Shown: positions 2,779-42,113 of the stretch, one piece after another
How the letters are laid out: every line of letters starts with the position of its first letter
How positions within the stretch are numbered: position 1 is the stretch's first letter
Assembly: GCA_937949535.1 (NCBI GenBank)
Contig: CALEDI010000076.1
Location: 1-42,433 of the forward strand
Length of the DNA: 42,433 nucleotides
Direction: 5' to 3'
Origin: an uncultured Lewinella sp.
Lineage (GTDB): Bacteria > Bacteroidota > Bacteroidia > Chitinophagales > Saprospiraceae
Notes under the pieces: generated by a model
What the model was told of the DNA's origin: nothing
The model's database searches: none
What the model saw: the letters and a program-made list of their open reading frames with translations, nothing else
Program-made: the position numbers and the translations under genes

Positions 2779-2842
2779 TAGCCATGCTAACTATCTGACT
2801 ACATGACTACTGACTATCTGGCTGTTTGACTATCTGACTACT
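2779..2842. repeat. Octamer repeat array (GACTAYCT type)
   Basis: Imperfect tandem copies of an 8-bp unit (GACTATCT, with variants such as GGCTGTTT) fill the end of the gap between the two M16 genes. The array runs into the stop codon of the upstream gene (TAG, read from 2840-2838). The same unit recurs at 29228-29352. Confidence 0.75.
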
Positions 2843-17891: not shown

Positions 17892-17991
17892 TGGAGGGCT
17901 TTATGACATTGCTAATTCAAAAAAAACGCCGGCCCTAACTTTAGCGCTCCAAAGTCTGTTCTCTGCTACAACAGACCAACTCCCCCACCTC

Positions 17992-19020
17992 ATGCGCCTA
18001 GACCACATCGGCATAGCCGTAACCGACCTCTCCGCCGCCGAAGACCTCATCGCTCGCCTACTAGGCCGCGATGCCTATAAACGCGAAACCGTTGCCGACC
18101 AACACGTAACGACCAGCTTCTTCACCGCCGGAGACCATGCGGCCAAGCTCGAATTGGTCGCCGCCGAAGGCGAGCGCGGGCCAATTCATAAATACCTCCA
18201 AAAGCGCGGCCCCGGCATGCACCACCTCGCCTTCGAGGTCGATGATATTGAAGCAGAAATGCAACGCCTCGCCGCCGATGGGTTCGAGTTGCTGCAGGAA
18301 AAACCCTCACGCGGGGCCGACAATAAGCTCGTCTGCTTCCTCCACCCCAAGAGTACCAACGGCGTGCTGGTCGAGATTTGCCAGAGCATCCCCTCTACCT
18401 CACACTTGGCGGAAAACAGCGAAGCGGTTGATTTGGCCACTTTCTGGGGCAGCCGCTACGACGAAGCCCGGACCGGTTGGGACATCGGCTACCCTTCCCC
18501 GCCCATCACGGATTACCTCGACCAGATCGCCGACAAATCCCTACGCATCCTCATTCCCGGCGCAGGCAACGCCTACGAGGTCGAATACGCCTGGAAGCTC
18601 GGTTTCCACAATGTCCACGTCCTAGATGTAGCAACCCAACCGCTGAAAGCCTTCGCCGAGCGGGTACCCGAGTTCCCAAAGGAACAACTCATCCAAGGCG
18701 ATTTCTTCGAGCACATCGGCCAGTACGACCTCATTCTGGAACAGACTTTTTTCTGCTCTTTTCCTCCCCTACCCACAACCCGAAGCGCTTACGCCGAAAA
18801 AATGCACGCTCTACTGGTTCCCAACGGCAAACTCGTAGGCCTCTGGTTTGATATCCCCCTCACCGGCAACATGGAAAAACGACCCTTCGGTGGCTCCCGC
18901 GCCGAATACCTCGGCTACTTCGCGCCGTTTTTCGAGATGGAATCATTCGCTACCGCAACCAATTCCATCGCACCACGGTTGGGCAATGAGTTGTTCGGAA
19001 TTTTCAGAAAGGCAGGTTGA
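17992..19020 (+). CDS. Methylmalonyl-CoA epimerase / TPMT-type methyltransferase fusion
   Basis: This 342-residue protein has two parts. Residues 1-133 are a glyoxalase-fold methylmalonyl-CoA epimerase. HIGIAV gives metal ligand H5, KLELV gives a second ligand near E54, PGMHHLAFEVDDI gives H77 or H78, and GVLVEIC gives E128. Residues 145-342 are a thiopurine S-methyltransferase-like SAM enzyme: FWGSRYDEARTGWDIGYPSPP, the SAM motif RILIPGAGNAYEVEYA, VLDVA with the acidic D212, and QGDFFEHIGQYDLILEQTFFCSF. The epimerase normally serves propionate and odd-chain metabolism as a single-domain protein of about 135 residues, so the fusion is real in this sequence and worth noting. The reading frame is continuous, with no sign of a frameshift. 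A weak -7-like TAACTTTA lies at 17936. Its stop codon begins the heptamer repeat block. Confidence 0.9.
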   Translation: MRLDHIGIAVTDLSAAEDLIARLLGRDAYKRETVADQHVTTSFFTAGDHAAKLELVAAEGERGPIHKYLQKRGPGMHHLAFEVDDIEAEMQRLAADGFELLQEKPSRGADNKLVCFLHPKSTNGVLVEICQSIPSTSHLAENSEAVDLATFWGSRYDEARTGWDIGYPSPPITDYLDQIADKSLRILIPGAGNAYEVEYAWKLGFHNVHVLDVATQPLKAFAERVPEFPKEQLIQGDFFEHIGQYDLILEQTFFCSFPPLPTTRSAYAEKMHALLVPNGKLVGLWFDIPLTGNMEKRPFGGSRAEYLGYFAPFFEMESFATATNSIAPRLGNELFGIFRKAG

Positions 19021-19271
19021 GCAGGTTGCAGGTTGCAAGTTGCAAGTTGCCGTGTAGCATGTGTGAGGAGGCAACTTGTAACCTGCAACCTGTATGTGTG
19101 ACGGGCAACTTGCAACTTGCAACCTGTATGTGTGACGGGCAACCTGCAACTTGCAACCTGTATGTGTGACGGGCAACCTGCAACTTGCAACTTGCAACCT
19201 GTATGTGTGACGGGCAACCTGCAACTTGCAACTTGCAACCTGTATGTGTGACCTGTAACTTGCAACCTGCT
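19018..19271. repeat. Heptamer repeat array (CAACYTG) filling the gap before the MFS gene
   Basis: The whole gap between the fusion gene and the MFS gene consists of this repeat. It opens with about five CARGTTG units, then turns around to CAACYTG units punctuated by five copies of TGTATGTGTGAC at 19091, 19125, 19159, 19200 and 19241. These larger units are 34, 34, 41 and 41 bp apart, the difference being one heptamer. The array begins at the stop codon (19018-19020) and ends 1 bp before the ATG at 19272. Confidence 0.85.
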
Positions 19272-20570
19272 ATGAACCAAGAAAAACGCCTACTCCTCAT
19301 CCTCGCCGCCGTACAGTTTTGCCACATCATCGACTTCATGATCATCATGCCGTTGGGCAAGACGATCATGGCGGTGTTCAATATTTCCCCGGGCCAGTTT
19401 GCCTGGGTGGTGTCGGCTTATGCGGGGGCTGCGCTGACGGGCAACCTCATCAGTACGGCGTTCATTGACCGGTTTGACCGGCGTTCGGCGCTGCTGTTTT
19501 TGTTCTGTGGGTTCACCCTTGGTACGCTGGCTTGTGCCTTTGCGCCGTCTTATTTGTTGCTGCTCGTTTTTCGGGGGGCGACCGGTATTTTTGGCGGCAC
19601 TTTGGGTGCGCTGGTGCTTGCGATCGTGGGGGATGTGATTCCGTTGGAGCGGCGTGGGGCCGCGATGGGGTGGGTGATGACGGCCTTTTCGGCGGCCAGC
19701 GTTGTTGGCGTTCCGTCGGGTATCTGGATTGCGGCGGAGTATGGTTGGAGTGCGCCTTTTGTGGTTACGGCGGCGCTTTCGGCGGCCTTCGTGGTGTTGG
19801 CTTACTTCGTGGTGCCTCCCCTGCGCGGGCATTTGCAGCAGGGGGCGCGGCCGCAGGTGCAAAGTGAAGACAAAGGAGCAATGGAAGGGGTTATCGACAC
19901 CGTCGCGCTGCGGCAAGCCGACCTCCCGCCTGCGGGCGAAGCCCTCGCCCCCAAGCGCGGGTTGCGGAAAGTCGTTGACCCTTTCGTCCGCATTTTTTCC
20001 GATGCCAACCAGCGGGCGGCACTGCTCTTCACGATGACACTGATGCTGGGGCACTTCACCATCATCCCCTTCATCGCGCCCTACATGCAGATCAACATCG
20101 GTTTTGGAGACAAGCAGGTGGGCCTGATCTACTTCATCGGTGGTCTCCTGACGGTAGTGCTGCTCCCTTTCTTCGGAAAGCTGTCCGACAAATACGGCCG
20201 GATGCGGATATTCGCTACCGCTTCCGTCTTCGCCCTAGCGAGCATCTACGCCCTCACCAACCTCGATACCGATTCCATTTACATCGCCTTACTGACAACT
20301 TCCTCTTTCTTTGTGGTGGCGAGTGGGCGCAGTGTTCCGGCTACGACAATGATCACCTCCGTCGTTCGGCCAGAGAACCGGGGCGGGTTCATGAGCATCC
20401 GGCAGTCGATCAACGAGATGGCACTTTTTGCCAGCACCGTCATCGCCGGTTTCATCATCACCGAAGGCCCAGACGGCAAGCTCGAACACTACGAATGGTT
20501 GGGGTATTTCACGATGGGGATGAGTGTGTTGGCCGTTTGGGCCGCCAGCAGGATTAAAGCAGTGGCCTAA
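19272..20570 (+). CDS. Major facilitator superfamily transporter
   Basis: This 432-residue protein with about 12 membrane helices starts at MNQEKRLLLILAAVQFCHIID. An in-frame ATG at 19185 lies inside the repeat array and is rejected. The loop 2-3 motif appears as FIDRFDRRSALLF and its second-half counterpart as GKLSDKYGRMRIF. Helices 1-6 look like the arabinose-efflux (AraJ-type) group of drug or sugar exporters. The central cytoplasmic loop (about 186-245) is long and includes an in-frame copy of the GC-rich element (residues about 191-197). The substrate cannot be told from sequence. A small hairpin followed by T6 overlaps the stop codon. Confidence 0.9.
   Translation: MNQEKRLLLILAAVQFCHIIDFMIIMPLGKTIMAVFNISPGQFAWVVSAYAGAALTGNLISTAFIDRFDRRSALLFLFCGFTLGTLACAFAPSYLLLLVFRGATGIFGGTLGALVLAIVGDVIPLERRGAAMGWVMTAFSAASVVGVPSGIWIAAEYGWSAPFVVTAALSAAFVVLAYFVVPPLRGHLQQGARPQVQSEDKGAMEGVIDTVALRQADLPPAGEALAPKRGLRKVVDPFVRIFSDANQRAALLFTMTLMLGHFTIIPFIAPYMQINIGFGDKQVGLIYFIGGLLTVVLLPFFGKLSDKYGRMRIFATASVFALASIYALTNLDTDSIYIALLTTSSFFVVASGRSVPATTMITSVVRPENRGGFMSIRQSINEMALFASTVIAGFIITEGPDGKLEHYEWLGYFTMGMSVLAVWAASRIKAVA
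19843..19863 (-). repeat. GC-rich dispersed element, copy 5, inside the MFS gene
   Basis: On the minus strand this copy reads TTTGCACCTGCGGCCGCGCC, the best match to the family consensus. It lies in frame within the central loop of the transporter, a tolerant place for an insertion. Confidence 0.6.
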
Positions 20571-20586
20571 GCATAGGCTTTTTTAT
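20565..20586 (+). terminator. Short hairpin terminator at the end of the MFS gene
   Basis: GCCTA (20565-20569) pairs with TAGGC (20574-20578) around AGCA and is followed by a T-rich tract. It overlaps the stop codon. The stem is short, so confidence is moderate. Confidence 0.45.
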
Positions 20587-20754
20587 AATTTTTTCAGTTC
20601 CAGCACCTTAACTAAGAAGGGTTTTGGATAACTTTACATATAAATTGGTGAGGTTTCGCTTCTCTTTGTAGCCAAACGCTCGCACAATCATATCTCATTT
20701 GCTCTAGCGAAACTCTTTTTAGCTAGGCTGTTTTACTACTTAACACACTACACT

Positions 20755-21930
20755 ATGCGTTCAGCTCTACTCTTGCTTTTTGTTTGTATTACCGTTGCGC
20801 TGACTGCGCAAACCTCCATTGATTTTACCGGCTTTGACGGCAGCGGTATTTCAGCTCCCTCTCCTAACGGAGACGCAATTGTTGGAGGCCAACTTAACGG
20901 TGCCGTTTTCTCAATTGACGGTTTCAGCTCTGCAGCCGACCTATCGCGTGGCTCCTCTGCCGGCGGAGTAAGTACCGGCGGTGTTTATGCCTTTGAGGTG
21001 GCCCCAGGAAATGTTGCCCTAGGCGTTCAGCCAGGCGGTAGTGATTTCACAGACGGTTACATTCAGCTCGAACTCTTCAACCAGTCTGGTGCTGCGATTA
21101 TCCCTGCAGACATGATTAACGTCAGTTATACCATCTATACCTTAAATAATCAGCCCCGAGCCAACTCTTTAAACTTTGCCTACTCTACAGATGGTTCAAC
21201 TTTCACGGATATCCCCGCTCTGGACTATACCTCTCCCGCAACAGCAGATGCTTCTCCGGTTTGGGTAGCCACTACACGTACAACTACGATCACTGGAATT
21301 AGTGTTCCCGCAGGCGCAGCTTTTTACATCCGCTTTATTGGCGATGACGAAACTGGAAGTGGCTCGCGAGACGAATTTGCTTTAGATGACATTAACGTAG
21401 GCATCGTAAGTATCCTCCCCGTCACCCTAACCAACCTATCCGCAGTGCAAATGGGCAAAACAGCGATGGTAAAATGGTCTACCGCTACCGAGTCTGGCAA
21501 CAGCCACTTCGTAGTAGAGCGTAGCCAAGAAGGAGGCGCATTTGCCGCAGTAGGCCGCGTAACCGGAGCAGGAGACAGCTACGGCACGATCAACTACGAC
21601 TTCGTAGACCATGCCCCCGCTACGGGAACGAACTACTACCGCCTCCGCCAAGTAGACTTTACGGGCGAGGCTACGGTCTCTCACTCTGTGATGGTATCCT
21701 TCGAGGCAACAAGCCTCACGGCTTACCCCAACCCGGTGGCTGACCGCCTCTTCCTCAGCGGTGCTGCGGCAACCTCCCGCACCACCATCCTCGACCTCAA
21801 CGGCCGGGTACTGAGCACAACCCAGACGAGTGCCAACGGCATCGCCACCAACAAGCTTGCCGCAGGCACCTACCTACTCCGTGTAGAAAGTGCTACGGGT
21901 ACAGAGACACTGCGCTTCGTTAAGCAGTAG
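20755..21930 (+). CDS. Secreted T9SS cargo protein of unknown function
   Basis: This 391-residue protein has a signal peptide (MRSALLLLFVCITVALTAQ). The first 220 residues form a beta-rich domain with no recognised enzyme motif (FTGFDGSGISAPSP, FYIRFIGDDETGSGSRDEFALDDI). The last part resembles the jelly-roll domains common in Bacteroidota surface proteins. From about residue 223, VSILPVTLTNLSAVQMG, VKWSTATESGNSHFVVERS and TNYYRLRQVDFTGE form the fibronectin-like module that often precedes T9SS tails. The type A sorting domain follows (LTAYPNPVADRLFL, LAAGTYLLRVES, RFVKQ). It is exported and probably anchored at the surface. It stands alone between the MFS and SLC12-like genes and ends with a strong terminator. 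Confidence 0.88.
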   Translation: MRSALLLLFVCITVALTAQTSIDFTGFDGSGISAPSPNGDAIVGGQLNGAVFSIDGFSSAADLSRGSSAGGVSTGGVYAFEVAPGNVALGVQPGGSDFTDGYIQLELFNQSGAAIIPADMINVSYTIYTLNNQPRANSLNFAYSTDGSTFTDIPALDYTSPATADASPVWVATTRTTTITGISVPAGAAFYIRFIGDDETGSGSRDEFALDDINVGIVSILPVTLTNLSAVQMGKTAMVKWSTATESGNSHFVVERSQEGGAFAAVGRVTGAGDSYGTINYDFVDHAPATGTNYYRLRQVDFTGEATVSHSVMVSFEATSLTAYPNPVADRLFLSGAAATSRTTILDLNGRVLSTTQTSANGIATNKLAAGTYLLRVESATGTETLRFVKQ

Positions 21931-21955
21931 TAAATTTCTACGCTGGTTACCAGCT

Positions 21956-21993
21956 ACAGCCGGGTCTTTCTCTAGAAAGGCCCGGCTGTTTTG
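21956..21993 (+). terminator. Intrinsic terminator of the T9SS cargo gene
   Basis: ACAGCCGGG pairs with CCCGGCTGT, and CTTTC with GAAAG inside, with a TCTA loop and a TTTTG tail. It starts 25 bp after the stop codon. Confidence 0.88.
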
Positions 21994-22053
21994 TTTGCTA
22001 CCGTTAAAGTTAGGGTGTATAGTCTGCCTATAAATTAGTCCGCCGACTATCAT

Positions 22054-22101
22054 CAAAACGCACAGCGTTTTTATAACCCCCTCCCCCGTGGGGAGGGGGT
22101 T
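22054..22101. other. Two adjacent hairpins between convergent genes
   Basis: AAAACG-CACAG-CGTTTT (22054-22070) is followed by a 12-bp stem of AACCCCCTCCCC with GGGGAGGGGGTT (22075-22101, 3-nt loop). They lie downstream of the SLC12-like gene on the minus strand and may end its transcript, although no long T-tract follows. Confidence 0.5.
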
Positions 22102-22175
22102 TGCGCGCGGAGACAATACACTACAGATTACACTGTACTAGCTACTACTTGGCTGTCTGAATCCCCCAACTCTCC

Positions 22176-24554
22176 CTACCGTATCTCCACCTCCTCACTA
22201 GCATTAACAAACAGTACATTCCCGATCTCATCATAGCCAGCGAAGTAATCTTCGCCGATGTGCTTGAGTGCCTTGTCTCGGAAACCGAGGATGACCAGAT
22301 CGGCTTCGCCGCTCTTCCGTGCGATGACCGATTTGGAGTCGGAATCATCCATCCGGCAAAGTACGTCGATGTTGTTGCGGCTGATGGGCAGTTGGCCCGT
22401 CTCAATGAGGTCGTACAGGGCCTGTTCTTCTTCGGCCATTTTGGATTCCTCGAAGACGGCAAACAGCTTGATCTCCGCGCCCTGCCAGTCGGGGTGGCCG
22501 GTCATCACGTAAGCGAGCAAGATCATCAGGTTGGCGCTCTCGTAGTGCGCCCGCGTAATCCAGACGTGGATGGTCTTTTTGAGGCCAAAGCCGCGCTCGG
22601 AAAGACCAAGGATGCCGATGTTGAAATCGACAGACTTGATGAGCTTGAAGTTGTCGATGATCTCCGACAAGCCATCCTCTTTGTTCTTAGAATATTCCAG
22701 CAGCAGCAGGTTGTTTTCTGTGCCCGCTATGCCGGGAAACTGCACAATCTGCGCGATGGCGGAGGTGTAAGACGGAGATACGATGGTGTCTACATAAATG
22801 CGGCTGTCCGTCGCTTCCGCCATCCGGATGATGCGTTCTTTGATGCTGGCAGCCTCTTCGCTTTTCTCGTGGCTGAGGTACCCATCTACGTAGTGGAGGT
22901 AGGTACCGAAGCCGTATTTCTGGCTCAGCCAGCGGAGCAAATCGAATGCTCCGAGGCGGGTGAAGGTTGCGTTGCTGGCGGCGATCACACTTGGCCGCCA
23001 ACTCTTTTTTTCCTCCTTATCGGCCTTCTGCAAAAAGATCTGCAAGCGGCGGCTAAACTGGAAGATCACGCCCTGGAAGATGAGCGCCATGCTCCGCTTG
23101 TCTGGGTTGGCGTAGGCGATGTAGACGTACAAAATCCCGATCAGTACCACGGCCAGCGCGGCGTAGGTAGAGTTCATGAAAAACATGAGCCCGAAACAGG
23201 CGAGTGCGCCGAAAAGCGAGACGTACCACTTGGAGCGGAAGGTGGGGCGGTAGCTGGGGTCTGCCGCAAAGTGGTTCAGGAAGCTGATGAGGCAGAGCGA
23301 GCCGTAGGTGACCATGAAGAACATGGAAATGATTTCCGCCACGCTGTCTAGCGCGCCCAACATGATGAAAAAAGCGGCCAACAAGACCGTTATCAGGCTC
23401 GCGTTGTAGGGTTCGTTGTTTTCACCTTTTCCTTGCCCGATCCAGTTGTTGATGGCTGGGGCGGGGAATATTTTGTCGGCGGCGATGGCCTGTAATGTTC
23501 GTGGGGCAACGAGGATGGAACCGAGGGCGGAGCTGATCGTGGCGGCGGCCAAGCCCAGCGGGATGATCCACCAGCCCTGCCAGGCGATGTCGGCCATCAC
23601 CAATCGGCTCGTATCGGCGAGGGCTTCCGGAGGGGCGGAGACGGAGAGTTTCCAGGCCATGAAGAAGTAAATCACCATGCCGCCGATGGTGGCGGCCAGG
23701 GTTCCGAGCGGGATGCTGCGGCCGGGGTCTTTCAGGTCGCCGCTCAGGCCGACGCCCGCCGTCATGCCGGTGAAGGCGGGGAAAATGATGGCGAAAACGG
23801 TGAAGAAGCTTAGCTGCGGGATGTCAGGTTTTGGAGTGGGCGAGGGCGCAGGTGCCATGGATGTTGCTTCGCGGGCCGTGGCTGCTTCGCCGTTGAGGTA
23901 CACGGTGTCGGAGTTATTGGCTTGGGTTCGTTCCTCAAGGCCAGCGGCGGTTGCTTCGGCTCCGGCGGTGTAGCTGTTGAAGAAGGCGATCTCGTGGCTG
24001 TCGGCATACTCCGTACTTCCTAAAAAAAACGCCACTAGGGCGATGCCGAGGGTAAACACCACGCTGTAGAGCACCTTCACGCCCAGATCGGCTCCTTTGC
24101 TCAGGATGAGCAGGGTAAGCAGCAGTAGGGCAGGAATACCGATGGTTTGGGGCTGCGAGAGCAGCCACTCCGCCCACGGCAAAAGCGGATACGTCTCCAA
24201 CACCCAAGCAATGAACGGCCGGAAGGCTTCCGTAAAAGCCATGATGTAAAACGCCACCGAAATGGCCTGAGACATATACAGCGCCATCCCGATTGTAGAC
24301 CCAATCACGAGCCCAAAACTGCGCGAAATGATGTAGTATTCTCCGCCGCCTTCTACTTTCTGGTTGGTCGCGATCTCCGCAATCGCCATCGCCGTCGGGA
24401 TGGTTACTGCGTGGCCGATCAGGATGATCGCCAGCGTACCCGCCAGCCCAACCATCCCTACGGCGAAGCCGAAGCGCAAAAACATGATCGCACCAAGGAT
24501 AGTACTGATGGCCGTGAAGAAGACTGGGGCCGTTCCGAATTTTTGTTTACTCAT
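22176..24554 (-). CDS. SLC12-like (cation-chloride cotransporter/APC superfamily) transporter
   Basis: This 792-residue protein has about 12 membrane helices in residues 1-485 and a cytosolic C-terminal domain of about 300 residues. TM1 reads ILGAIMFLRFGFAVG, as in SLC12 carriers. EGGGEYYIISRSFG and FTGMTAGVGLSGDLKDPGRSIP are also diagnostic of that family. A variable loop near 208-240, rich in Pro, Ala and Thr, separates helices 5 and 6. The C-terminal domain (NLLLLEYSKN, FNIGILGLSERGFG, VWITRAHYESANLMILLAYVM, AEIKLFAVFEE, ADLVILGFRDKAL) matches the SLC12 regulatory domain, which has a universal-stress-like fold. It should move Cl- with K+/Na+, or amino acids; this cannot be decided here. 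It is transcribed divergently from the rhodaneses, 137 bp apart. Confidence 0.88.
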   Translation of the reverse strand: MSKQKFGTAPVFFTAISTILGAIMFLRFGFAVGMVGLAGTLAIILIGHAVTIPTAMAIAEIATNQKVEGGGEYYIISRSFGLVIGSTIGMALYMSQAISVAFYIMAFTEAFRPFIAWVLETYPLLPWAEWLLSQPQTIGIPALLLLTLLILSKGADLGVKVLYSVVFTLGIALVAFFLGSTEYADSHEIAFFNSYTAGAEATAAGLEERTQANNSDTVYLNGEAATAREATSMAPAPSPTPKPDIPQLSFFTVFAIIFPAFTGMTAGVGLSGDLKDPGRSIPLGTLAATIGGMVIYFFMAWKLSVSAPPEALADTSRLVMADIAWQGWWIIPLGLAAATISSALGSILVAPRTLQAIAADKIFPAPAINNWIGQGKGENNEPYNASLITVLLAAFFIMLGALDSVAEIISMFFMVTYGSLCLISFLNHFAADPSYRPTFRSKWYVSLFGALACFGLMFFMNSTYAALAVVLIGILYVYIAYANPDKRSMALIFQGVIFQFSRRLQIFLQKADKEEKKSWRPSVIAASNATFTRLGAFDLLRWLSQKYGFGTYLHYVDGYLSHEKSEEAASIKERIIRMAEATDSRIYVDTIVSPSYTSAIAQIVQFPGIAGTENNLLLLEYSKNKEDGLSEIIDNFKLIKSVDFNIGILGLSERGFGLKKTIHVWITRAHYESANLMILLAYVMTGHPDWQGAEIKLFAVFEESKMAEEEQALYDLIETGQLPISRNNIDVLCRMDDSDSKSVIARKSGEADLVILGFRDKALKHIGEDYFAGYDEIGNVLFVNASEEVEIR

Positions 24555-24691
24555 AATGCTTTTGCCCCTGCTGTGCTGAGGACGGGCGAAGGTACGAACA
24601 TCGATAATTTTTGAAATTGTTGTGATTGGCTTCTGTAAAACCCCACCCCCTTCCAGTACGTTACTCTACCAACAACAAACCTCCACCAACC

Positions 24692-25048
24692 ATGAACGAA
24701 GGCCCTCCTGCCTGTCCGATCCCCCGCTGGACGCTCCTGAAACAAGCGCTCCGCAACGTAAGCCCCGCCGAGTTTGACGCGCTGCGCGCGCAAGCCCCAA
24801 CGGGAACCTTACTCGACGTGCGCGCGCCTGCGGAGTTCGACGCCTTCCACCTCGAGGGCGCGGTAAATATGAACTACCTTGGGCCCGATTTTCTGGAGCA
24901 AATGGAAGCTTTAGACCCCCAAACAGAGTACTTGGTCTATTGCCGCAGCGGCCGCCGTTCCGTACGGGCTTGCACCCTGATGCGCAACGCGGGCATCAAG
25001 CAACTCATCCACCTCGACGGAGGCATCAATGCCTACGAGCAGGCCTGA
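24692..25048 (+). CDS. Cytosolic rhodanese-domain protein
   Basis: This 118-residue protein starts at the ATG at 24692, which follows ACCAACC; an upstream TTG in frame is rejected. A single rhodanese domain covers about 20-115: LLDVRAPAEFDAFHLEGAVNM, then the active-site loop YCRSGRRS with the sulfur-carrying cysteine near residue 82, then LDGGINAYEQA. No signal peptide, so it is cytosolic. It may transfer sulfane sulfur or bind thiols. The next gene encodes a related lipoprotein rhodanese 43 bp downstream, which points to tandem duplication followed by different targeting. Confidence 0.9.
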   Translation: MNEGPPACPIPRWTLLKQALRNVSPAEFDALRAQAPTGTLLDVRAPAEFDAFHLEGAVNMNYLGPDFLEQMEALDPQTEYLVYCRSGRRSVRACTLMRNAGIKQLIHLDGGINAYEQA

Positions 25049-25091
25049 AGACCGACATTTCCCCACTATCTCAAACCCACACTTAGGAATT

Positions 25092-25490
25092 ATGAAGTTC
25101 TTTATCTCTACCCTACTTCTCATTAACCTTCTTTGCACCTGCGGCCCCGCCCCTGAAAAAGCAACAACGGAAGACCAAACAACGGAGCAAGCAGCGGTCT
25201 ACCAAGACCTCTCTCCCGTAGAATTCGCCGAGTACATCGGTGAAGAAAACACCGTCTTGATCGATGTACGCACCCCCGCCGAAACCGCCGGAGGCATCAT
25301 TGAAGGCGCCCTTGAAATAGACTACCGCTCTCCAGATTTTGCCCAAAAACTCAGCGAGTTAGACCCCGACAAAACCTACCTGGTCTACTGTGCTTCCGGC
25401 GGCCGCAGCGGCAAAACCTGCGGCAAGCTGAACGAAATGGGCCTCACAAAAGTCTACAACTTGAAGGGAGGATATGCTGCTTGGAAGTAA
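25092..25490 (+). CDS. Rhodanese-domain lipoprotein
   Basis: This 132-residue protein starts at the ATG at 25092 with MKFFISTLLLINLLCTC, a lipoprotein signal with two cysteines (16 and 18) near the lipobox. The rhodanese domain covers about 38-132: VLIDVRTPAETAGGIIEGALEI, active loop VYCASGGRSGKTC with the catalytic cysteine, and NLKGGYAAWK. It is probably tethered in the periplasm. About 29 bp around its lipobox codons (25132-25160) match the GC-rich dispersed element, so the element may have contributed the residues after the signal helix, or the match is chance. It is likely co-transcribed with the preceding rhodanese. Confidence 0.9.
   Translation: MKFFISTLLLINLLCTCGPAPEKATTEDQTTEQAAVYQDLSPVEFAEYIGEENTVLIDVRTPAETAGGIIEGALEIDYRSPDFAQKLSELDPDKTYLVYCASGGRSGKTCGKLNEMGLTKVYNLKGGYAAWK
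25132..25160 (+). repeat. Possible GC-rich element copy 6 within the lipobox
   Basis: TTTGCACCTGCGGCCCCGCC followed by CCTGAAAAA differs from the element consensus at one core position. It encodes the residues around the lipidated cysteine. Because a lipobox constrains this sequence, coincidence is possible. Confidence 0.35.
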
Positions 25491-25501
25491 GAGGGGGGAG
25501 A

Positions 25502-25516
25502 CAGGTTGCAGGTTGC
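25502..25516. repeat. Heptamer repeat, two CAGGTTG units
   Basis: A minimal block of the heptamer family lies 11 bp after the rhodanese stop codon, between convergent genes. Confidence 0.6.
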
Positions 25517-25546
25517 GACACATACTTGCCAGGCTACTGTACTAGA

Positions 25547-26464
25547 CTATTTATTCAGTTCTACGCCCACCGAAAACCATGCCCAAGCGTGGGAAGTACC
25601 GCCTTCGAACTCCGTACTAAGGTGCCGAAGGCCACCGCTTAGTTTTAGTCCGTCAAAGTGGATGGTGGCGTCTAGGCCGAAAGTGCCTACGAGGGGTTTG
25701 GGTTGGATTCTGCCTCGGTAACGCTCATCTCGGTTGAGCAGGCCGCCACTCAGTGTAGCGTCATAGGCTACTAGCCGGCCCCTACCCAAGAGGTCGAAGC
25801 TCAGGGTACGTTTTTCTCCTAGCCGGATGGCGAGCCAGCTGAATTTTAGTTCTGAAGACAGGTTGTTGTAGAGCGTACCCACTCGGCCGGTAAGCCCAGC
25901 GGTAAAGCTAAGCCGTGGGGAAATGGGAAGTCGCTGGTTTATACCAAGTTGGTAGTTCAGAATCACGTCTGGTTTTACTTCGTTGGGCCAGCCAGGTACT
26001 TCGTCGGCATAGCTGAACAGGCTGTGCCAGGCGTTTTGCATACGCCCTCCGCCGGAGTAACGACCTAGAACCCCTGCGGTCAGTTCCCACCGAAAGCTAA
26101 GTCCCTGCTGGTTGGTGTCGGAAAACTTACCCCGCGTAAGGGTGAGGTAAGAAGCATACGGCCGGTCGTCTTCAAGAAAGCGCTTCGCGTCGATCTCTTG
26201 TGGGGTGTAAATGTTTTGTGTTAGCCGCCAATACCGTTCTGTCGTTTTGGTCTGGCTGGGGTGCGAGGGGGATGTTTTTCGTTCTCGTCGCCCATATTCT
26301 AGGTTTAGGCCACTGGTGAAATACCGATCCGTTTTGGCGGGGAGGTACAATACGTCGTTGGCTGCTTTGAATTCAAAGTAGCAACTTTCTCGGAAAGATT
26401 GGCCGGAAAGAAAAGTTGAAGTGCCAACGATGAGGGCTCCGAAGAGCAACAAGCCTTTCGACAT
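25547..26464 (-). CDS. LpxR-like (DUF2219) outer-membrane lipid A deacylase
   Basis: This 305-residue protein starts at the ATG at 26464, where a signal peptide begins (MSKGLLLFGALIVGTSTFLSGQ). The 79-codon upstream extension is non-coding. LpxR/DUF2219 features are in order: AANDVLYLPAKTDRYFTSGLNLEYG near the N-terminus (Asn-Asp and Ser of the active site), QNIYTPQEI, DDRPYASYLTL, then MQNAWHSLFSY with the likely catalytic histidine and PGWPNEV, and alternating beta strands to the C-terminus, as expected for a 12-strand barrel. LpxR removes the 3'-acyloxyacyl chains of lipid A in other bacteria, and that activity is presumed here. A promoter at 26528-26558 gives it its own transcript. Confidence 0.85.
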   Translation of the reverse strand: MSKGLLLFGALIVGTSTFLSGQSFRESCYFEFKAANDVLYLPAKTDRYFTSGLNLEYGRRERKTSPSHPSQTKTTERYWRLTQNIYTPQEIDAKRFLEDDRPYASYLTLTRGKFSDTNQQGLSFRWELTAGVLGRYSGGGRMQNAWHSLFSYADEVPGWPNEVKPDVILNYQLGINQRLPISPRLSFTAGLTGRVGTLYNNLSSELKFSWLAIRLGEKRTLSFDLLGRGRLVAYDATLSGGLLNRDERYRGRIQPKPLVGTFGLDATIHFDGLKLSGGLRHLSTEFEGGTSHAWAWFSVGVELNK

Positions 26465-26527
26465 ACTCGCGGGGATTAAGGTTGGTATGTACCCGCTTAA
26501 CAAAGCTGAAAAACAGTGAATCTTGCC

Positions 26528-26558
26528 CAAATGTACGAGTATCTGCTGATTCCCGAAA
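26528..26558 (-). promoter_or_regulatory. Bacteroidota promoter for the LpxR-like gene
   Basis: On the minus strand TTTC (26558-26555), 19 bp, then TACATTTG (26535-26528) match the TTTG-N19-21-TAnnTTTG pattern with one mismatch. The box lies 63 bp upstream of the start codon, and this supports the start at 26464. Confidence 0.6.
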
Positions 26559-26623
26559 CCCTTTTTCCGCTGAAAATTACGCAGGACGGTGGGGGGGAGG
26601 GTACCCTTCCGGGCGTTTTTAGC

Positions 26624-26663
26624 GCAAAAAACCCGCGAACTCCAAAACGTTGGAGTTCGCGGG
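26624..26663 (-). terminator. Intrinsic terminator of the OmpH/Skp genes
   Basis: A perfect 14-bp stem (26632-26645 with 26650-26663, core GCGAACTCC) has a 4-nt loop and is followed on the minus strand by T6. The heptamer repeat lies between the stop codon at 26723 and this terminator. Confidence 0.88.
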
Positions 26664-26685
26664 CTAAGGTATGTTGTACGGGAAT

Positions 26686-26719
26686 AACTTGCAACTTGCA
26701 ACCTGCAACCTGCAACCTG
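26686..26719. repeat. Heptamer repeat array, CAACYTG units
   Basis: Four to five units, mostly CAACCTG, end 3 bp from the stop codon of the downstream OmpH/Skp gene (26723). Confidence 0.75.
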
Positions 26720-26722
26720 ATC

Positions 26723-27229
26723 TTACATCCCGAGTTTTGCCTTCACAGCAGCACTCACATCAGAGGACTCTTCGCCGAAGAGCAGTACCTGCTGATCGAA
26801 GATGAACTGGAAGCCCTGTTCTTTAGCAACGGCCTTGATGGCTTCGTTTACCTTTTCGTAGATGGGCTCTAGGAGTTCGTTGCGCTTCTTCTGGAGGTCT
26901 TCCACCATGCTCTGCTCGAACTCACCGATTTCTTTCTGGCGAGCTTCTAACTTAGCGGATTCTTCTTGCTGAACTTTAGGGGTTAGTTCGCCAGCTTGTG
27001 CTTTGGTCTGAAGCTCTTGAACGTCTTTCTGGAAGGTTTCGACCATCGCACGGCCTTTCTTCTGGAGCTGTGTTTGTAGTGCTTCGAGGCCAGATTCAGC
27101 GGCTTTCATTTCGGGCATTTCAGCAAGGATAGCCTGAGAGTTTACGTAACCGAATTTCTGCGCGGAGGCTGTGGTGGTAGCGGCGATGAGCAGCAGGGCC
27201 ACGACGGCCAATTGGATAAACTTTTTCAT
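26723..27229 (-). CDS. OmpH/Skp family periplasmic chaperone, second copy
   Basis: This 168-residue protein starts at the ATG at 27229 (MKKFIQLAVVALLLIAATTTASAQ, signal peptide). A frame open 17 codons further upstream overlaps the promoter. The mature part has the Skp pattern: KFGYVNSQAILAEMPEM, a long coiled coil (about 45-125, heptad-rich LEALQTQLQKKGRAMVETF), and a closing strand QGFQFIFDQQVLLFG. Skp trimers hold unfolded outer-membrane proteins in the periplasm. It follows a second OmpH-like gene but has its own promoter at 27268-27298 and ends with a strong terminator. Tandem ompH genes near bamA are common in Bacteroidota; bamA is not in this window. Confidence 0.92.
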   Translation of the reverse strand: MKKFIQLAVVALLLIAATTTASAQKFGYVNSQAILAEMPEMKAAESGLEALQTQLQKKGRAMVETFQKDVQELQTKAQAGELTPKVQQEESAKLEARQKEIGEFEQSMVEDLQKKRNELLEPIYEKVNEAIKAVAKEQGFQFIFDQQVLLFGEESSDVSAAVKAKLGM

Positions 27230-27267
27230 TTGATTTAGTTGAGTCGTTGTCATTTTTTTAGCGGCCG

Positions 27268-27298
27268 CAAAGATAAGCAAATCCTGCGTTCGCTAAAA
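27268..27298 (-). promoter_or_regulatory. Bacteroidota promoter for the second OmpH gene
   Basis: On the minus strand TTTT (27298-27295), a 19-bp spacer, and TATCTTTG (27275-27268) give a near-perfect match. The -7 box runs straight into GCGGCCGC (27268-27261), so the start of the transcript overlaps the GC-rich motif. The start codon at 27229 is 38 bp away. Confidence 0.7.
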
Positions 27299-27358
27299 GA
27301 CACGTTTGAAGATGGCCCCGGTTGGTTGGTTTTGGGGCGAAAAGGGGATTTTTGTTGG

Positions 27359-27420
27359 CTGCAGGTTATACAGGTTGCAAGTTGCAGGTTGCACGGCAAT
27401 TTATAACCTGCAACCTGTAC
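27359..27420. repeat. Heptamer repeat as inverted array between the OmpH genes
   Basis: CARGTTG units (27359-27392) face CAACYTG units (27405-27418), so the block can fold back on itself. The right end touches the stop codon of the upstream OmpH gene (TAG, 27422-27420). Confidence 0.8.
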
Positions 27421-27938
27421 TAATTCTTAAGTGCACGCAGGATGTCGTCCGTCTTGTCGTAGGCATCGTTGGCGAAGATGATGCCGGCGGCGCCAGCGCG
27501 GTCGAAGATGAAGTCGTAGCCTCGGGTAGAGGCATAGTTTTCGACGGCTTCGTAGATCGCGTCTTGGATAGGCTTCACGAGTTCTTGGCGGCGCTGAAAG
27601 AGGGCACCTTCGGGGCCGAAGCGTTCGCGTTGCATTTTCTGAACGGCTTGCTCCTTGGCGATGATTTCATCTTCGCGTTGGGTGCGTTGGTCTTCGCTGA
27701 GGAGGACTTGTTCGGCTTGGTACTTGCTGTACATACCCTTGATGGCGTCGTACTGCTGGCTGATGTCTTGTTGCCATTTGGCCGCGAGCTGGTCTAGCTG
27801 CTCTTGGGCTTCTTGGTATTCGGTGATGCTGCCTAGGATTTTCTCCATATCAATGGAGGCAATTTTCTGGGCGGAGAGCGAGTTGCCGAAGCCCACGAGG
27901 GCAAACATGGCGACGAAGAGGAAAGTACGGATACGCAT
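27420..27938 (-). CDS. OmpH/Skp family periplasmic chaperone, first copy
   Basis: This 172-residue protein has a signal peptide (MRIRTFLFVAMFALVGFGNSLSAQ). KIASIDMEKILGSITEYQEA opens the mature chain, then a coiled coil of about 80 residues (LDQLAAKWQQDISQQYDAIKG, QREDEIIAKEQAVQKMQRER) and a C-terminal core YASTRGYDFIFDRAGAAGIIFA. It differs clearly from the next copy, so the duplication is old. A -7 box (TACTTTTG) sits at 27961-27968. It should assist outer-membrane protein transit. Confidence 0.92.
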   Translation of the reverse strand: MRIRTFLFVAMFALVGFGNSLSAQKIASIDMEKILGSITEYQEAQEQLDQLAAKWQQDISQQYDAIKGMYSKYQAEQVLLSEDQRTQREDEIIAKEQAVQKMQRERFGPEGALFQRRQELVKPIQDAIYEAVENYASTRGYDFIFDRAGAAGIIFANDAYDKTDDILRALKN

Positions 27939-27960
27939 GAGGTTAGCTTTTTTTAGGGTT

Positions 27961-27968
27961 CAAAAGTA
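27961..27968 (-). promoter_or_regulatory. Bacteroidota -7 box for the first OmpH gene
   Basis: On the minus strand TACTTTTG matches TAnnTTTG and lies 22 bp from the start codon at 27938. No clear -33 box. Confidence 0.5.
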
Positions 27969-28260
27969 AGTTGGCCGTTTCGGACCGTCTGCCTAATAGA
28001 CGCTTTAGAAGGACCGAAGTTACGGCATTGCGATAGTTTTAAGAGTTTGGCGTTTACCGTAATTGACTGATAATCAAACACCTAAACCTAAACGTTCGCC
28101 TCTCACAGATATGGTGTTTAACGTAAAATTAACGAGCTATCAAGGCTTTTTAAACGGCTTGCTCCTAGGTTTAGTCCGTTAAGTGGTGCTTTAGCAAGAC
28201 CATAAGCCCACAAATAACGTCCCTAAAACCATCTTTGCACCAGCGCACTGCGCCTTAATT

Positions 28261-28357
28261 AGGTTGCAAGTTGCAAGTTGCAGGTTGCAAGTTACAAGTT
28301 CACGTCACACCTGCAACACGGAACCTGCAACCTGCAACTTGCAACTTGCAACTTGTA
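28261..28357. repeat. Heptamer repeat as inverted array before the peroxiredoxin gene
   Basis: Five or six CARGTTG-type units (28262-28300) and five CAACYTG-type units (28322-28357) face each other around a 20-bp centre. It probably lies in the 5' leader of the peroxiredoxin transcript and could form a long hairpin there. Confidence 0.8.
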
Positions 28358-28435
28358 CAACCATAAAAAGCCATAGATCCATACAACAAAAGTCTTGCGG
28401 CTGTGTATTCAACACCGTACCAAACAAATAAGAAC

Positions 28436-28903
28436 ATGGCCCTCAAAATAGGAGACAAAGCCCCTTTATTTACGCTGCACGCCAGCGACACCAAAGAAGT
28501 TAGCCTGAACGACTACGCAGGCAAGAACGTAGTTGTACTATTTTTTCCACTCGCCTTTACTGGTGTATGTACCGCTGAACTGTGTACCATGCGCGATGCG
28601 CTGGCCGAGTTCAACGGCATGAATACCGACGTAGTTGCCATCAGTGTAGACAGCCCTTTCACGCTAGCTAAGTTCAAAGAGGCTGAAAACCTGAACTTCC
28701 CCCTCCTCAGCGATTTCAACAAAGAAGTCAGCCGCCAGTACGGTTCGTTGTACGACACCTTCGTATTCGGGATGGAAGGCGTTTCCAAGCGTTCCGCTTT
28801 TGTAGTTGATGCTGAAGGCATCATTCGCTACGCCGAAGTGCTGGAATCTGCGGGAGATTTGCCTAACTTTGCTGCTGTAAAGGAAACTTTGGCCTCGCTC
28901 TAA
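28436..28903 (+). CDS. Peroxiredoxin (BCP/AhpE-like)
   Basis: This 155-residue cytosolic protein starts at MALKIGDKAPLFTLHASD; 11 upstream in-frame codons are rejected. The thioredoxin fold carries FTGVCTAELC with the peroxidatic cysteine C45 preceded by T42, and a possible resolving cysteine C50 five residues on, as in BCP-type enzymes. The conserved arginine is in KRSAFVV. ISVDSPFTLAKFKEAENLNFPLLSDF is typical of the AhpE/BCP group. It reduces hydrogen peroxide and organic hydroperoxides using thiols. clpS begins 30 bp downstream on the same strand, so the genes may be co-transcribed, linking oxidative stress with protein turnover. Confidence 0.93.
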   Translation: MALKIGDKAPLFTLHASDTKEVSLNDYAGKNVVVLFFPLAFTGVCTAELCTMRDALAEFNGMNTDVVAISVDSPFTLAKFKEAENLNFPLLSDFNKEVSRQYGSLYDTFVFGMEGVSKRSAFVVDAEGIIRYAEVLESAGDLPNFAAVKETLASL

Positions 28904-28933
28904 CCGTTTTCTCCCAAAAGATTGCCAACCAGT

Positions 28934-29227
28934 ATGTTGTACGCCCACGCTCCCCAGGAAGATGTCTTGCTCGAAGAAGAAATTGAAGTCGGTTCCGGTG
29001 AACCCGCAGACCTGATCGTGTACAACGACGATCACAATACGTTTGATTGGGTGATGAAGAGCTTCGAGGAAATCCTCGGCCACTCCTCCCAGCAGAGCGA
29101 ACAACTCGCAATGTTGATCCACTTCAAAGGTAAAGCCACCGTCAAGTCTGCCGCTATGGCCGAGTTGCGCCCCAAGCGCGAAGCGCTGGTAGACCGGGGG
29201 CTCTCGGCAGTGATTGAAGGAAGGTGA
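28934..29227 (+). CDS. clpS: ATP-dependent Clp protease adaptor ClpS
   Basis: This 97-residue protein starts at the ATG at 28934, though a TTG four codons earlier is possible. The folded domain has the N-degron pocket motif IVYNDDHNTFDWVMKSF, and MLIHFKGKATVKSAAMAEL matches the strand-helix segment containing the conserved His (H..G). ClpS recognises proteins with N-terminal Phe, Leu, Trp or Tyr and delivers them to ClpA/ClpC-type unfoldases. The gene coding for Aat, which creates such N-termini, follows 131 bp downstream. Confidence 0.95.
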   Translation: MLYAHAPQEDVLLEEEIEVGSGEPADLIVYNDDHNTFDWVMKSFEEILGHSSQQSEQLAMLIHFKGKATVKSAAMAELRPKREALVDRGLSAVIEGR

Positions 29228-29352
29228 TTTAGTCAGATAGTCAAGCAGTCAGGTAGTCAAATAGTACCGCCCAACAGGATCACATGACTGAACGATGTAT
29301 AACTGCGGACTATCTGACTATCTGACTATTTGGCTACCTGACTACCTGACTA
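29228..29352. repeat. Octamer repeat as inverted array between clpS and aat
   Basis: The left arm (about 29231-29264, AGTCAGATAGTC type) and the right arm (about 29314-29352, GACTATCT/GACTACCT units) are near-perfect reverse complements over roughly 28 bp, around a centre of about 50 bp. The array starts at the clpS stop codon and ends 6 bp before the aat ATG. Confidence 0.85.
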
Positions 29353-29358
29353 CTCTCC

Positions 29359-30042
29359 ATGCCCCTCTACCGCCTAGACCCCCGTTTCCCAGAACTGTTC
29401 CCGGACCCCCTCCAAACCAACGGCGACTCACCAGCCTGCTTCAGCGGCGGCCTGAGCCCCGAGTGGTTGTTCAACGCCTATCACCTTGGTTATTTCCCTT
29501 GGTTCAGCGAGGGCGACCCCATTTTTTGGTGGCACCCCGATCCGCGTTTTGTGCTCTTCCCCGATAAGTTGAAGGTGAGCAAGAGTATGCGCCCCTACTT
29601 CAACCAACAAAAGTTTACGGTGCGCTATGATACCCAGTTTAGGGAAGTAATGAACAATTGCCGCGAAACCTACCGCCCAGGGCAGTGGGGAAGCTGGATT
29701 ACAGATGAGCTCACGGAAGGCTACGTCGGCTTACATGAATTGGGCCTGGCCCATAGTGTGGAAGTCTACGAAAACGACGAACTAGTGGGCGGGCTTTATG
29801 GCTTAGCGCTGGGCAAAGTGTTCTTCGGGGAGAGCATGTTTCACCATCGGGCCAATGCGAGTAAGTTCGCGTTCATCAGCCTAGTACGCCGCCTCCAAAG
29901 CGAAGGCTTTCGGGTAATTGATTGCCAACAGGAAACCGGACACTTGAAGTCGTTGGGCGGAGAGACCGTCTCCCGAGCAGAATTTCTGAACCTCATTGGC
30001 CCCATCCGAGAAGAAGGGACTACACGGGGGAAATGGTCGTAA
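29359..30042 (+). CDS. aat: Leucyl/phenylalanyl-tRNA-protein transferase
   Basis: This 227-residue protein has the family signature in order: GGLSPEWLFNAYHLGYFPWFSEGDPIFWWHPDPR, the central WITDELTEGYVGLHELGLAHSVE, LVGGLYGLALGKVFFGESMF with the catalytic-site E-S-M-F, then FAFISLVRRL and DCQQETGHLKSLGGE. It transfers Leu or Phe from tRNA to proteins with N-terminal Lys or Arg, making them ClpS substrates. With clpS immediately upstream, the window holds both the writer and the reader of the bacterial N-degron pathway. Its end is 12 bp from a convergent gene, with no obvious terminator. Confidence 0.96.
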   Translation: MPLYRLDPRFPELFPDPLQTNGDSPACFSGGLSPEWLFNAYHLGYFPWFSEGDPIFWWHPDPRFVLFPDKLKVSKSMRPYFNQQKFTVRYDTQFREVMNNCRETYRPGQWGSWITDELTEGYVGLHELGLAHSVEVYENDELVGGLYGLALGKVFFGESMFHHRANASKFAFISLVRRLQSEGFRVIDCQQETGHLKSLGGETVSRAEFLNLIGPIREEGTTRGKWS

Positions 30043-30054
30043 AAGTTCATATTC

Positions 30055-38280: not shown

Positions 38281-38402
38281 AACAATCTTAAGGCTCCTTA
38301 ACAACAAGGAATGCCCAATCATCCCATCACCTTTTTTACTTGAAAGACGACCTTGGGTATACTCACTATTTACATTTTTGCTACTCTAGAAGACTGATAA
38401 TT

Positions 38403-41400: not shown

Positions 41401-42113
41401 CACGCGGAGAACAAGGCCAAGTAGGTCCTCAAGGACCTCAGGGTGAAATGGGCATGATGGGTCCCGAAGGTATCCAAGGTATCCAAGGCGAACGCGGTGA
41501 GCAAGGTGAGCAGGGTGTCAAAGGCCCTCAGGGTGACCAAGGTATCCAAGGTATCCAAGGTGAAACCGGCGAAACCGGTGAGCGCGGCCCTCGTGGCTTT
41601 GAAGGCCCTCGTGGCTTCCAAGGTATTCAAGGTATCGCTGGCCTTCAAGGTGAAATGGGTATGATGGGACCAGAAGGTGCTCGTGGTGCTGACGGTGCTC
41701 AAGGCCCAGAAGGCCCCCGTGGTGCTGACGGTGCTCAGGGTATTCAAGGCGTACAAGGTCTCCAAGGTGATCGTGGCCCACAAGGCCCACAAGGCCCACG
41801 TGGCCCATCCGGTGTTGCTACTGCTGCCGCTAGCTACTCAGGTGTTTCTCTTACAGAAACGTATGATGCTGCTAGCAACCTCAACTTCTTCGTAGAAGAT
41901 GACGGCAACGAAGATGAGTCTTACCTCCGGGTTAGCCTCTTCGACACTGACCTAACGGCGTTCAACAACGTCTTCCAGGTCAATGCCAACCAGTTGGGCG
42001 TAATGCAAACCATCGAGTATGTAGACGGAGACGCGATCATTCGCTTCTTCAACATGAACGGTGAAATAGTTGATGCTGATACTCTTGCACGGATTACGGT
42101 ACTCGTATTCTAA
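38403..42113 (+). CDS. Giant collagen-like surface protein
   Basis: This 1236-residue protein starts at [22 protein letters not shown] (signal peptide); an ATG-less upstream extension is rejected. Residues 23-128 form a beta-rich N-terminal head ([35 protein letters not shown]) that is shared by many Bacteroidota surface fibres. From residue 129 to 1136 there are about 336 Gly-X-Y triplets in unbroken register, rich in [12 protein letters not shown] and GER, with few prolines in Y and many acidic residues. A 100-residue C-terminal domain (from about 1137: [22 protein letters not shown]) closes the chain and could nucleate the trimer. There is no T9SS tail. It should form a trimeric fibre. A weak -7 region (TACATTTTTG) lies at 38369. 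Internal DNA duplications are listed separately. Confidence 0.93.
39138..40220 (+). repeat. 621-bp duplication inside the collagen gene
   Basis: Three separate landmarks recur exactly 621 bp apart: 39138/39759 (Gly-Ile-Ala-Gly-Ala-Asn), 39450/40071 ([13 protein letters not shown]) and 39582/40203 (RDGVDG). The unit is 207 residues, or 69 triplets. Synonymous sites differ between copies, so the duplication is not brand new. Confidence 0.8.
40681..41058 (+). repeat. 189-bp tandem duplication inside the collagen gene
   Basis: The segment encoding [19 protein letters not shown] starts at 40681 and again at 40870, 189 bp (63 residues, 21 triplets) apart. Confidence 0.75.
41101..41721 (+). repeat. 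207-bp tandem triplication inside the collagen gene
   Basis: The landmark encoding [13 protein letters not shown] occurs at 41101, 41308 and 41515, each 207 bp apart (69 residues, 23 triplets). The third copy diverges after its first third. This period is one third of the 621-bp unit upstream. Confidence 0.82.

Follow-up and report, generated by a model that had tools for sequence, protein, structure and literature searches.

Intergenic heptanucleotide arrays in an uncultured Lewinella sp. and the polarity of their fold-backs

A 42,433-nucleotide contig of an uncultured Lewinella sp. (GenBank assembly GCA_937949535.1, contig CALEDI010000076.1; this whole stretch is called the window below) contains, between its genes, arrays of the 7-bp unit CAACYTG or its complement CARGTTG, several of which turn round and run back in the opposite orientation. 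These arrays are a further example of the known intergenic heptanucleotide repeats. Less ordinary is a polarity, seen earlier for one Xanthomonas word, that does not depend on the repeated word: in the cases examined, nearly all fold-back arrays start with their G-richer arm, whichever strand is read. The arrays probably grew by replication slippage in intergenic gaps, where they would mostly be tolerated, and may have gained their second arm by a template switch.

A dispersed and mainly intergenic family

Across the window, 57 exact heptamers were counted. Runs of at least two exact units numbered 10, against a mean of 0.005 and a maximum of 1 in 200 mononucleotide shuffles, and the same blocks were listed by Tandem Repeats Finder. 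The five blocks reported in a preliminary description of this DNA are therefore real and lie where it placed them. Copies that follow each other head to tail beyond chance make them heptanucleotide simple sequence repeats, of the kind known as long simple sequence repeats (LSSR) or short tandemly repeated repetitive sequences (STRR).

The source genome (4.09 Mb in 335 contigs) contains 549 exact copies of the 14-mer CAACYTGCAACYTG and none of the reversed control. Its arrays were placed relative to genes in a sample of 24 clusters, i.e., nine on blind contigs (0.55 Mb) and 15 on contigs with listed matches plus the window, with genes and gaps called by a simple purpose-made gene finder. Despite a coding share of 81% in the sampled DNA, 20 clusters were found in gaps, one at a contig edge and only three inside predicted genes (p 6e-13). 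On the blind contigs alone, two of the nine clusters were inside predicted genes and one at a contig edge (p 2e-4), and on the other contigs this held for one cluster out of 15. Lone heptamers, unlike the arrays, track coding DNA (124 coding and 22 non-coding occurrences on the blind contigs). Arrays thus persist mainly outside coding DNA, and with their many dispersed, mostly extragenic copies they resemble LSSR and STRR in this respect as well. The genome-wide intergenic family that had been proposed is borne out: the two outcomes that were to speak against it, an equal frequency in genes and a restriction to the window, did not occur.

One of the clusters in genes (L175:5377-5595) is an in-frame CAACYTG array that would encode ~73 residues of NLQPATC-like repeats. 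By eye, the host gene reads like a glycosyltransferase, and the array looks like a real intragenic exception whose frame has been kept open. Another cluster of this kind, in L188, is located at a doubtful gene start.

Polarity of the fold-backs

When judged by exact runs, both orientations occur in nine of the 24 clusters, always with CARGTTG first; the other 15 run in one orientation. This regularity had been overlooked in the preliminary description. Fold-backs were then scored in 800 gaps of 22 genomes. Since the scoring is symmetric under strand exchange, a polarity is not an artefact of the reading direction. G exceeded C in the left arm of 21 out of 22 CAACYTG fold-backs and of 48 out of 57 tandem fold-backs of other words, with arrays of zero skew (one of 23 and two of 59, respectively) excluded from these sign counts, as compared with 83 G-first and 100 C-first cases among the non-tandem fold-backs of the same gaps. 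The lone C-first CAACYTG case (window position 26464) represents a different hairpin that was chosen in that gap. Counting each gap once, for periods of 7 to 9 bp, gave 57 G-first, two C-first and two mixed gaps (n=61). The G-first arrangement was found in 41 of 45 co-directional, six of six convergent and 10 of 10 divergent gaps. Of the four exceptions, L145 and L147 use the TAGTCA word, orientated as usual, in a form that lacks an excess of G; L174 (ATTCAAC) is a genuine exception, and the fourth is mixed. A count based on tracts, in which one fold-back may enter twice, gave 97 vs. 5.

When the arrays were grouped by word, 17 of 18 words were G-first and one further word was balanced, and arrays within a word agreed in 82 of 83 cases. 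The single-linkage grouping used here chains related words, so that one group comprises 59 of the 95 arrays, and the C-first array L090 of the set described next was scored G-first by its consensus word.

This set, from other genera in several phyla, consists of 78 loci picked for CAACYTG (98 listed less 20 of Lewinella and Neolewinella) and was scored for 7- and 8-bp periods only. Among its 37 fold-back arrays, of which four are from other Bacteroidota and two from an unassigned metagenome-assembled genome (MAG), 36 were G-first (CAACYTG, 15 of 15; other words, 21 of 22). As five of the 22 other-word arrays (L035, L069, L083, L108 and L110) are visible CAACYTG variants, the count for truly other words is 16 of 17. 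The period was 7 bp in 36 of the 37 arrays.

Two further sets of loci were seen outside these counts. In Pseudomonas, arrays of the heptamer GCAAGCT are present in 19 of 59 genomes (control, 0; loci L269-L298); three of 22 clusters are paired under each of two unit definitions, which gives six loci overall, all of them GCAAGC-first. Since GCAAGCT has equal numbers of G and C, it tests for a fixed orientation and not for the G rule. Eight viral contigs (L299-L306) contain three consecutive CAACYTG units, each in one orientation and with no partner run of at least two exact units.

Position at gene edges

The median distance of repeat tracts from the closest gene boundary is 12 bp. Of the 56 tracts no more than 10 bp from a stop codon, 49 have a G-rich coding strand, and of the 30 equally close to a start codon, 29 have a C-rich one. 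Paired arms are included in these counts and yield such a polarity by geometry alone.

Layout of the arrays in the window

The coordinates of the arrays are listed in Table 1. As had been reported, three of the five heptamer blocks turn round. Each does so from CARGTTG to CAACYTG, and their capacity to form hairpins is supported by predicted RNA pairing relative to dinucleotide shuffles (z -9.3 for 28255-28360, -5.65 for 19018-19271 and -3.9 for 27359-27421 on the minus strand). For the two single-arm blocks, z was -2.9 and -0.6.

Table 1. Repeat arrays of the heptamer and octamer families in the window
Feature	Positions	Remarks
Octamer-family single arm	2790-2846	Overlaps the minus-strand gene 2838-4169 at its stop end
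CARGTTG left arm, 4 copies	19022-19049	Starts 1 bp past a glyoxalase/TPMT-like gene (stop codon 19018-19020)
Spacer with core CCGTGTAGCATGTGTGA	19050-19071	Reverse complement of the core resembles GTCACRCATGYTACACGG
Right arm, CAACYTG with TAACYTG variants, in 34/41-bp composite units including TATGTGTGACGGG	19072-19269	
Single arm, 2 x CAGGTTG	25502-25515	Lies in a convergent gap, 11 bp past the stop of a rhodanese-like gene
Single arm, 4.9 x CAACYTG	26686-26719	Ends 3 bp short of the stop (26723) of an OmpH-like gene on the minus strand
Fold-back with a CARGTTG arm up to 27391, a spacer and a AACCTGCAACCTG arm (27405-27417)	27361-27417	
Fold-back with arms of CARGTTG (28261-28300) and CAACYTG (28322-28357) around a spacer	28261-28357	Upstream of an AhpC/TSA gene (28436)
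Octamer fold-back, TAGTCAGR-type then GACTAYCT-type units	29230-29353	Between ClpS-like and Leu/Phe-transferase genes

The block at 19018 is the most elaborate one. The higher-order units noticed there earlier are confirmed: each consists of three or four heptamers and the 13-bp spacer TATGTGTGACGGG, the first ten letters of which are found again at 19093, 19127, 19161, 19202 and 19243, and the resulting lengths of 34 and 41 bp differ by exactly one heptamer. An extra CAGGTTG at 19013-19019 overlaps the stop codon at 19018-19020. The stop codon 27420-27422 of the second OmpH-like gene (minus strand) and the 27359 block's last heptamer are 2 bp apart, and the right arm at 19072-19269 ends 2 bp ahead of the start codon (ATG, 19272) of a gene for an MFS transporter. 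Exact tandem heptamers cover 27371-27391 and 27411-27417 in the 27361-27417 fold-back and 28328-28355 (CAACYTG) in the 28261-28357 fold-back.

A second family in the window, overlooked before, is built from the octamer GACTAYCT and its complement and has the same layout as the heptamers. The genes next to the arrays belong to ordinary families, i.e., glyoxalase/TPMT, MFS, rhodanese, LpxR, OmpH (twice), AhpC/TSA, ClpS and Leu/Phe transferase. Known structured RNAs were not detected, as no Rfam model matched at its gathering threshold in 17900-30100 (0 matches). Elsewhere in the window, a very long open reading frame at 38340-42113 is made of 9-bp repeats of the CAAGGCCCT type and probably encodes a collagen-like Gly-X-Y protein.

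Arrays in related genomes

The 14-mer was counted in 60 genomes, one per species, comprising 20 other members of the genus and more from the family. Three of the 20 are rich in it, i.e., Neolewinella persica (G004; 318 copies), N. agarilytica (G002; 235) and G009 (90), and the remainder have 0 to 3 copies; a family member, G021, has 21. The control word occurs as a single copy in each of five of the 60 genomes. For the closest relatives, G007 and G014 (84% identity in one gene), the 14-mer count is 0 and 1, respectively.

The gap upstream of the AhpC/TSA gene was found in four relatives (G007, G014, G004 and G018). In the alignment, the 28261-28357 array of the source genome is missing in all four. 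At its place, G007 has GAACCTGTACAAC and G014 has GCAGGTACAG, and the array itself ends with CAACTTGTACAAC; from these letters, it looks as if one unit-like word seeded the array.

The gap between the two OmpH-like genes contains different words in different species. The CAACYTG fold-back of the source genome has as counterparts fold-backs of CAGGAGT-like units in G014, TAGTTTCTAAC-like units in G007, TAGTTCTG-like units in G011 and TTGCAGG-like units in G004, and several other relatives have none of that kind. The arrays of G007 and G004 were recognised by eye, beyond the count by lag score, in which three of 19 orthologous OmpH gaps (G014, G011 and G008) reached a score of at least 10. As this rate does not exceed the background in the source genome (41 of 268 gaps), the idea that the OmpH gap is a hot spot of insertion was rejected.

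Such diversity of words is not confined to this gap. Further gaps of G004, G002, G014, G007 and G005 contain tandem arrays, many of which fold back, with words that include TAGTCAGG, TTCAGGA, GTTGTCGG, TTGGTCTA and GTAGTAAT; the stretches of G004 and G002 surveyed for other words had been picked at CAACYTG matches. N. persica also has 9-bp arrays of TTGCAGGGG and TTGCAGGAG with at least 10 copies (L193 and L199), and gaps with nested arrays of differing words. The intergenic motif CTTTGCACCTGCGNNCGCGCC, which we take to be promoter-like and of the Bacteroidota -7 type, recurs in many gaps (L240, L246, L189 and others), in both orientations around arrays.

Comparison with known repeats

The cyanobacterial STRR of Mazel 1990 and the long simple repeats of Mrazek 2007 are said to include heptanucleotides as the commonest class in most genomes studied, and slippage was reportedly proposed as their origin. 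The arrays described here are likewise heptanucleotide tandem repeats for which slippage is proposed; a fold-back layout is not among the features of STRR and LSSR that are mentioned in papers citing those studies. REP, REPIN and BIME elements are dispersed intergenic palindromes of fixed sequence with a tag tetranucleotide. The arrays share with them a dispersed, intergenic and palindromic nature, but they consist of tandem heptamers in variable number, and a fixed palindrome with conserved ends in most copies was not found.

The closest parallel is formed by the GGGAATC and GGGGAYT heptamers of Xanthomonas and Nostoc, which are mostly intergenic (Rehm et al., 2015; PMC4692102). On the coding strand they are most frequent at up to 50 bp from a stop codon, which some copies overlap, and on the non-coding strand they are most frequent ahead of starts. 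Two Xanthomonas genomes contain 70 and 75 convergent pairs, and Nostoc contains few (Rehm et al., 2015). The likeness extends from the heptameric unit and the intergenic location near stops and starts, by strand, to the polarity, since convergent pairs correspond to the G-first arrangement; in the present arrays too, opposite-strand pairs have G-rich strands that point at each other. In contrast to that single G-rich, quadruplex-forming word, however, many unlike words are involved here, many of them without G runs by inspection, and in other phyla. The G runs of a quadruplex are lacking in CAGGTTG and CAAGTTG, which have at most two adjacent G.

Direct repeats of TAACTGA occur in marine Beggiatoaceae, cyanobacteria and five Bacteroidetes, mostly in intergenic regions and with a sporadic phylogeny (MacGregor, 2015; PMC4679880). 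They have a fixed orientation toward starts in 147 of 170 sets, with the commonest end 1 nt before the start, and other heptamer arrays share their gaps in some Bacteroidetes (MacGregor, 2015). All these features resemble those of the present arrays, except that only one of the 170 sets is inverted, whereas fold-backs are numerous here. As TAACTGA has equal numbers of G and C, the G rule is untestable on it. Paired short tandem units on opposite strands are also described in Geobacter metallireducens, i.e., hepta- and octamers at variable spacing with, e.g., the consensus GTTGCTYN (PMC2700814). They are interpreted there as binding sites of a global regulator with a set number of units, and the passages compared contain no statement on polarity.

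Literature searches, which covered few of the subscription journals, gave no statement of a polarity that is independent of the word or extends across phyla. A search with the repeat letters yielded nothing relevant (one unrelated Drosophila study), and one for Lewinella together with repeats gave no match naming Lewinella among those listed.

Origin of the arrays

Growth by slippage appears to be the best-supported origin, in view of the length steps of one heptamer, the empty site in relatives, the rarity of arrays in genes and the lack of a special word. The length evidence comprises unit steps inside one array and presence or absence between species. Expansion by slippage had been suggested before, and the whole-unit steps (34 vs. 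41 bp) and the empty orthologous gap are what such a process would leave behind. A gap would chance to hold one heptamer-like word, to which slippage would add units singly and, at times, larger composite blocks. The second arm may arise from a template switch at the growing end of a G-rich strand, since self-pairing comes more easily to single strands rich in G and T than to those rich in A and C; both arms would then expand and mutate independently. Transcripts across the arrays would form long hairpins, which in most places would be tolerated and not selected for regulation.

Several observations weigh against parts of this account. Against the template switch, the arms are not mirror images, as identical units were found at 26 of 75 places when counted from the centre and at 32 when counted from the outside, with 28.1 expected by shuffling. 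Furthermore, arm lengths are uncorrelated (17 fold-backs, rho -0.05), and the inspected spacers are mostly non-palindromic. The option that the arms are recent mirror copies was rejected, since there is no mirror signal. The G-rich arm folds better alone in 112 cases vs. 15, with 60 ties, but in array-free 40-mers the G-rich strand also folds better (340 vs. 137), and the advantage of G-rich strands in self-pairing, though real, is therefore general. Single arms have the stated polarity near starts in 17 of 19 and near stops in 16 of 21 cases, and farther off in 6 of 8 and 10 of 18 cases, respectively, and selection at gene edges could also produce this. Array-free DNA before starts is poor in G (G 0.157, C 0.292). 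Finally, among the fold-backs that lie over 60 bp from the genes on both sides, just 10 of 13 are G-first, and several of those 10 overlap in one locus. A constraint at start sites thus exists. However, array-free DNA after stops is roughly neutral (G 0.244, C 0.258), and convergent gaps, which contain no starts, are all six G-first. Selection at start codons was therefore rejected as the sole cause of the polarity, as it leaves stops and convergent gaps unaccounted for; selection at stops is possible.

Selection is the core of an alternative in which the arrays are regulatory hairpins, with G-rich RNA after stops serving 3'-end formation or protection and A/C-rich RNA before starts keeping leaders open or binding a translational regulator. 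The fixed polarity of tracts at gene edges, single arms included, and the strong predicted RNA hairpins would fit such a function, and a translational role has been suggested for the TAACTGA repeats (MacGregor, 2015; PMC4679880). Nevertheless, we consider it unlikely: positions are not conserved, as seen at the empty site in all four relatives whose gap was found, an orthologous gap contains differing words at no more than the background rate, and Rfam offers no match. Less probable still is a mobile element, in which heptamer arms around a core are copied in trans by a transposase, like REP/REPIN by RAYT (Y1). A GTCACRCATGNNNCACGG-like core is common to several spacers (window 19050-19066; L140, L144 and L180), and Y1_Tnp matches are present in 20 of 21 genus genomes, with five in the source genome, but these matches are not specific to array-rich genomes and were not classified as RAYT. 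Exact-pattern copies of the core number nine in the source genome, two in G002, one in G007 and none in the other 18, far below the number of arrays, and a mobile core was rejected on account of these few copies. In addition, array ends and unit numbers vary, unit words differ from species to species, and no duplication is apparent on the flanks of the one aligned empty site, although its boundary is not defined to the exact base. In G011, another fold-back contains GTCATATGTAACACATG, which is similar to the GTCACRCATGNNNCACGG core.

The polarity itself is what would be expected of head-to-head end additions. If a telomerase-like bacterial reverse transcriptase extended the 3' ends of a chromosome break with G-rich repeats and the ends were then joined, G-first fold-backs would result directly, as in telomere fusions. 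DRT10 enzymes were reported in a preprint to make tandem-repeat DNA in a telomerase-like manner, but they are primed from their own serine and not from chromosomal ends (PMC12632851). The source genome, G002 and G004 have one RVT_1 match each. However, nine of the 21 genus genomes gave no match to this profile, which could miss divergent reverse transcriptases (no DRT-specific model was searched), and these include G007 and G011 (98 and 96% complete), in both of which fold-back arrays are present. A reverse transcriptase is thus disfavoured as a requirement, and since a single genome also holds many words, we regard this origin as very improbable. We give no more credence to horizontal spread of one CAACYTG family over Chloroflexi, Bacteroidota, Desulfobacterota-type MAGs and other phyla. 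Its appeal lies in the at least 98 stretches of genome contigs, from many phyla, that contain the 28-bp CAACYTG word. In several phyla the word forms a genome-wide family, the highest count being 225 14-mers, in a MAG of the Anaerolineae, against 16 control words across all 50 genomes examined, which were chosen for having the 28-mer. Yet, among 395 Bacteroidota genomes drawn evenly, including the source genome, three consecutive CAACYTG units were found in four of the 394 others and the matched, reversed control word in three of 395. The recurrence of CAACYTG thus follows from the number of genomes searched, without any need for transfer, and a special or horizontally spread word was rejected for Bacteroidota, the phylum that was sampled evenly. 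The low copy numbers in the closest relatives, G007 and G014, argue in the same direction. Heptamer arrays of any given word seem to be rare but widespread, at least in Bacteroidota.

Implications

Taken as a whole, the earlier interpretation of these arrays, as a slippage-driven intergenic family that might be regulatory or merely tolerated, is partly supported. A wider proposal can be made only tentatively, and we rather doubt it: fold-back arrays of 7- to 8-bp units in bacteria might be G-first across words and phyla as a general law, and thereby mark a shared process of origin, acting at 3' ends rich in G, that continually writes intergenic hairpins. This process could be template switching by self-priming, or the extension of broken ends that are then joined. 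The word-independent polarity merits a proper survey. If it holds in a full one, a single mutational process that acts strand-specifically would have produced, as by-products, a class of intergenic hairpins in bacteria that might be taken for terminators or regulators. If selection at gene edges is responsible instead, it would provide a simple rule for what may follow a stop or precede a start. Either way, caution is warranted in calling long intergenic hairpins regulatory RNA without data.

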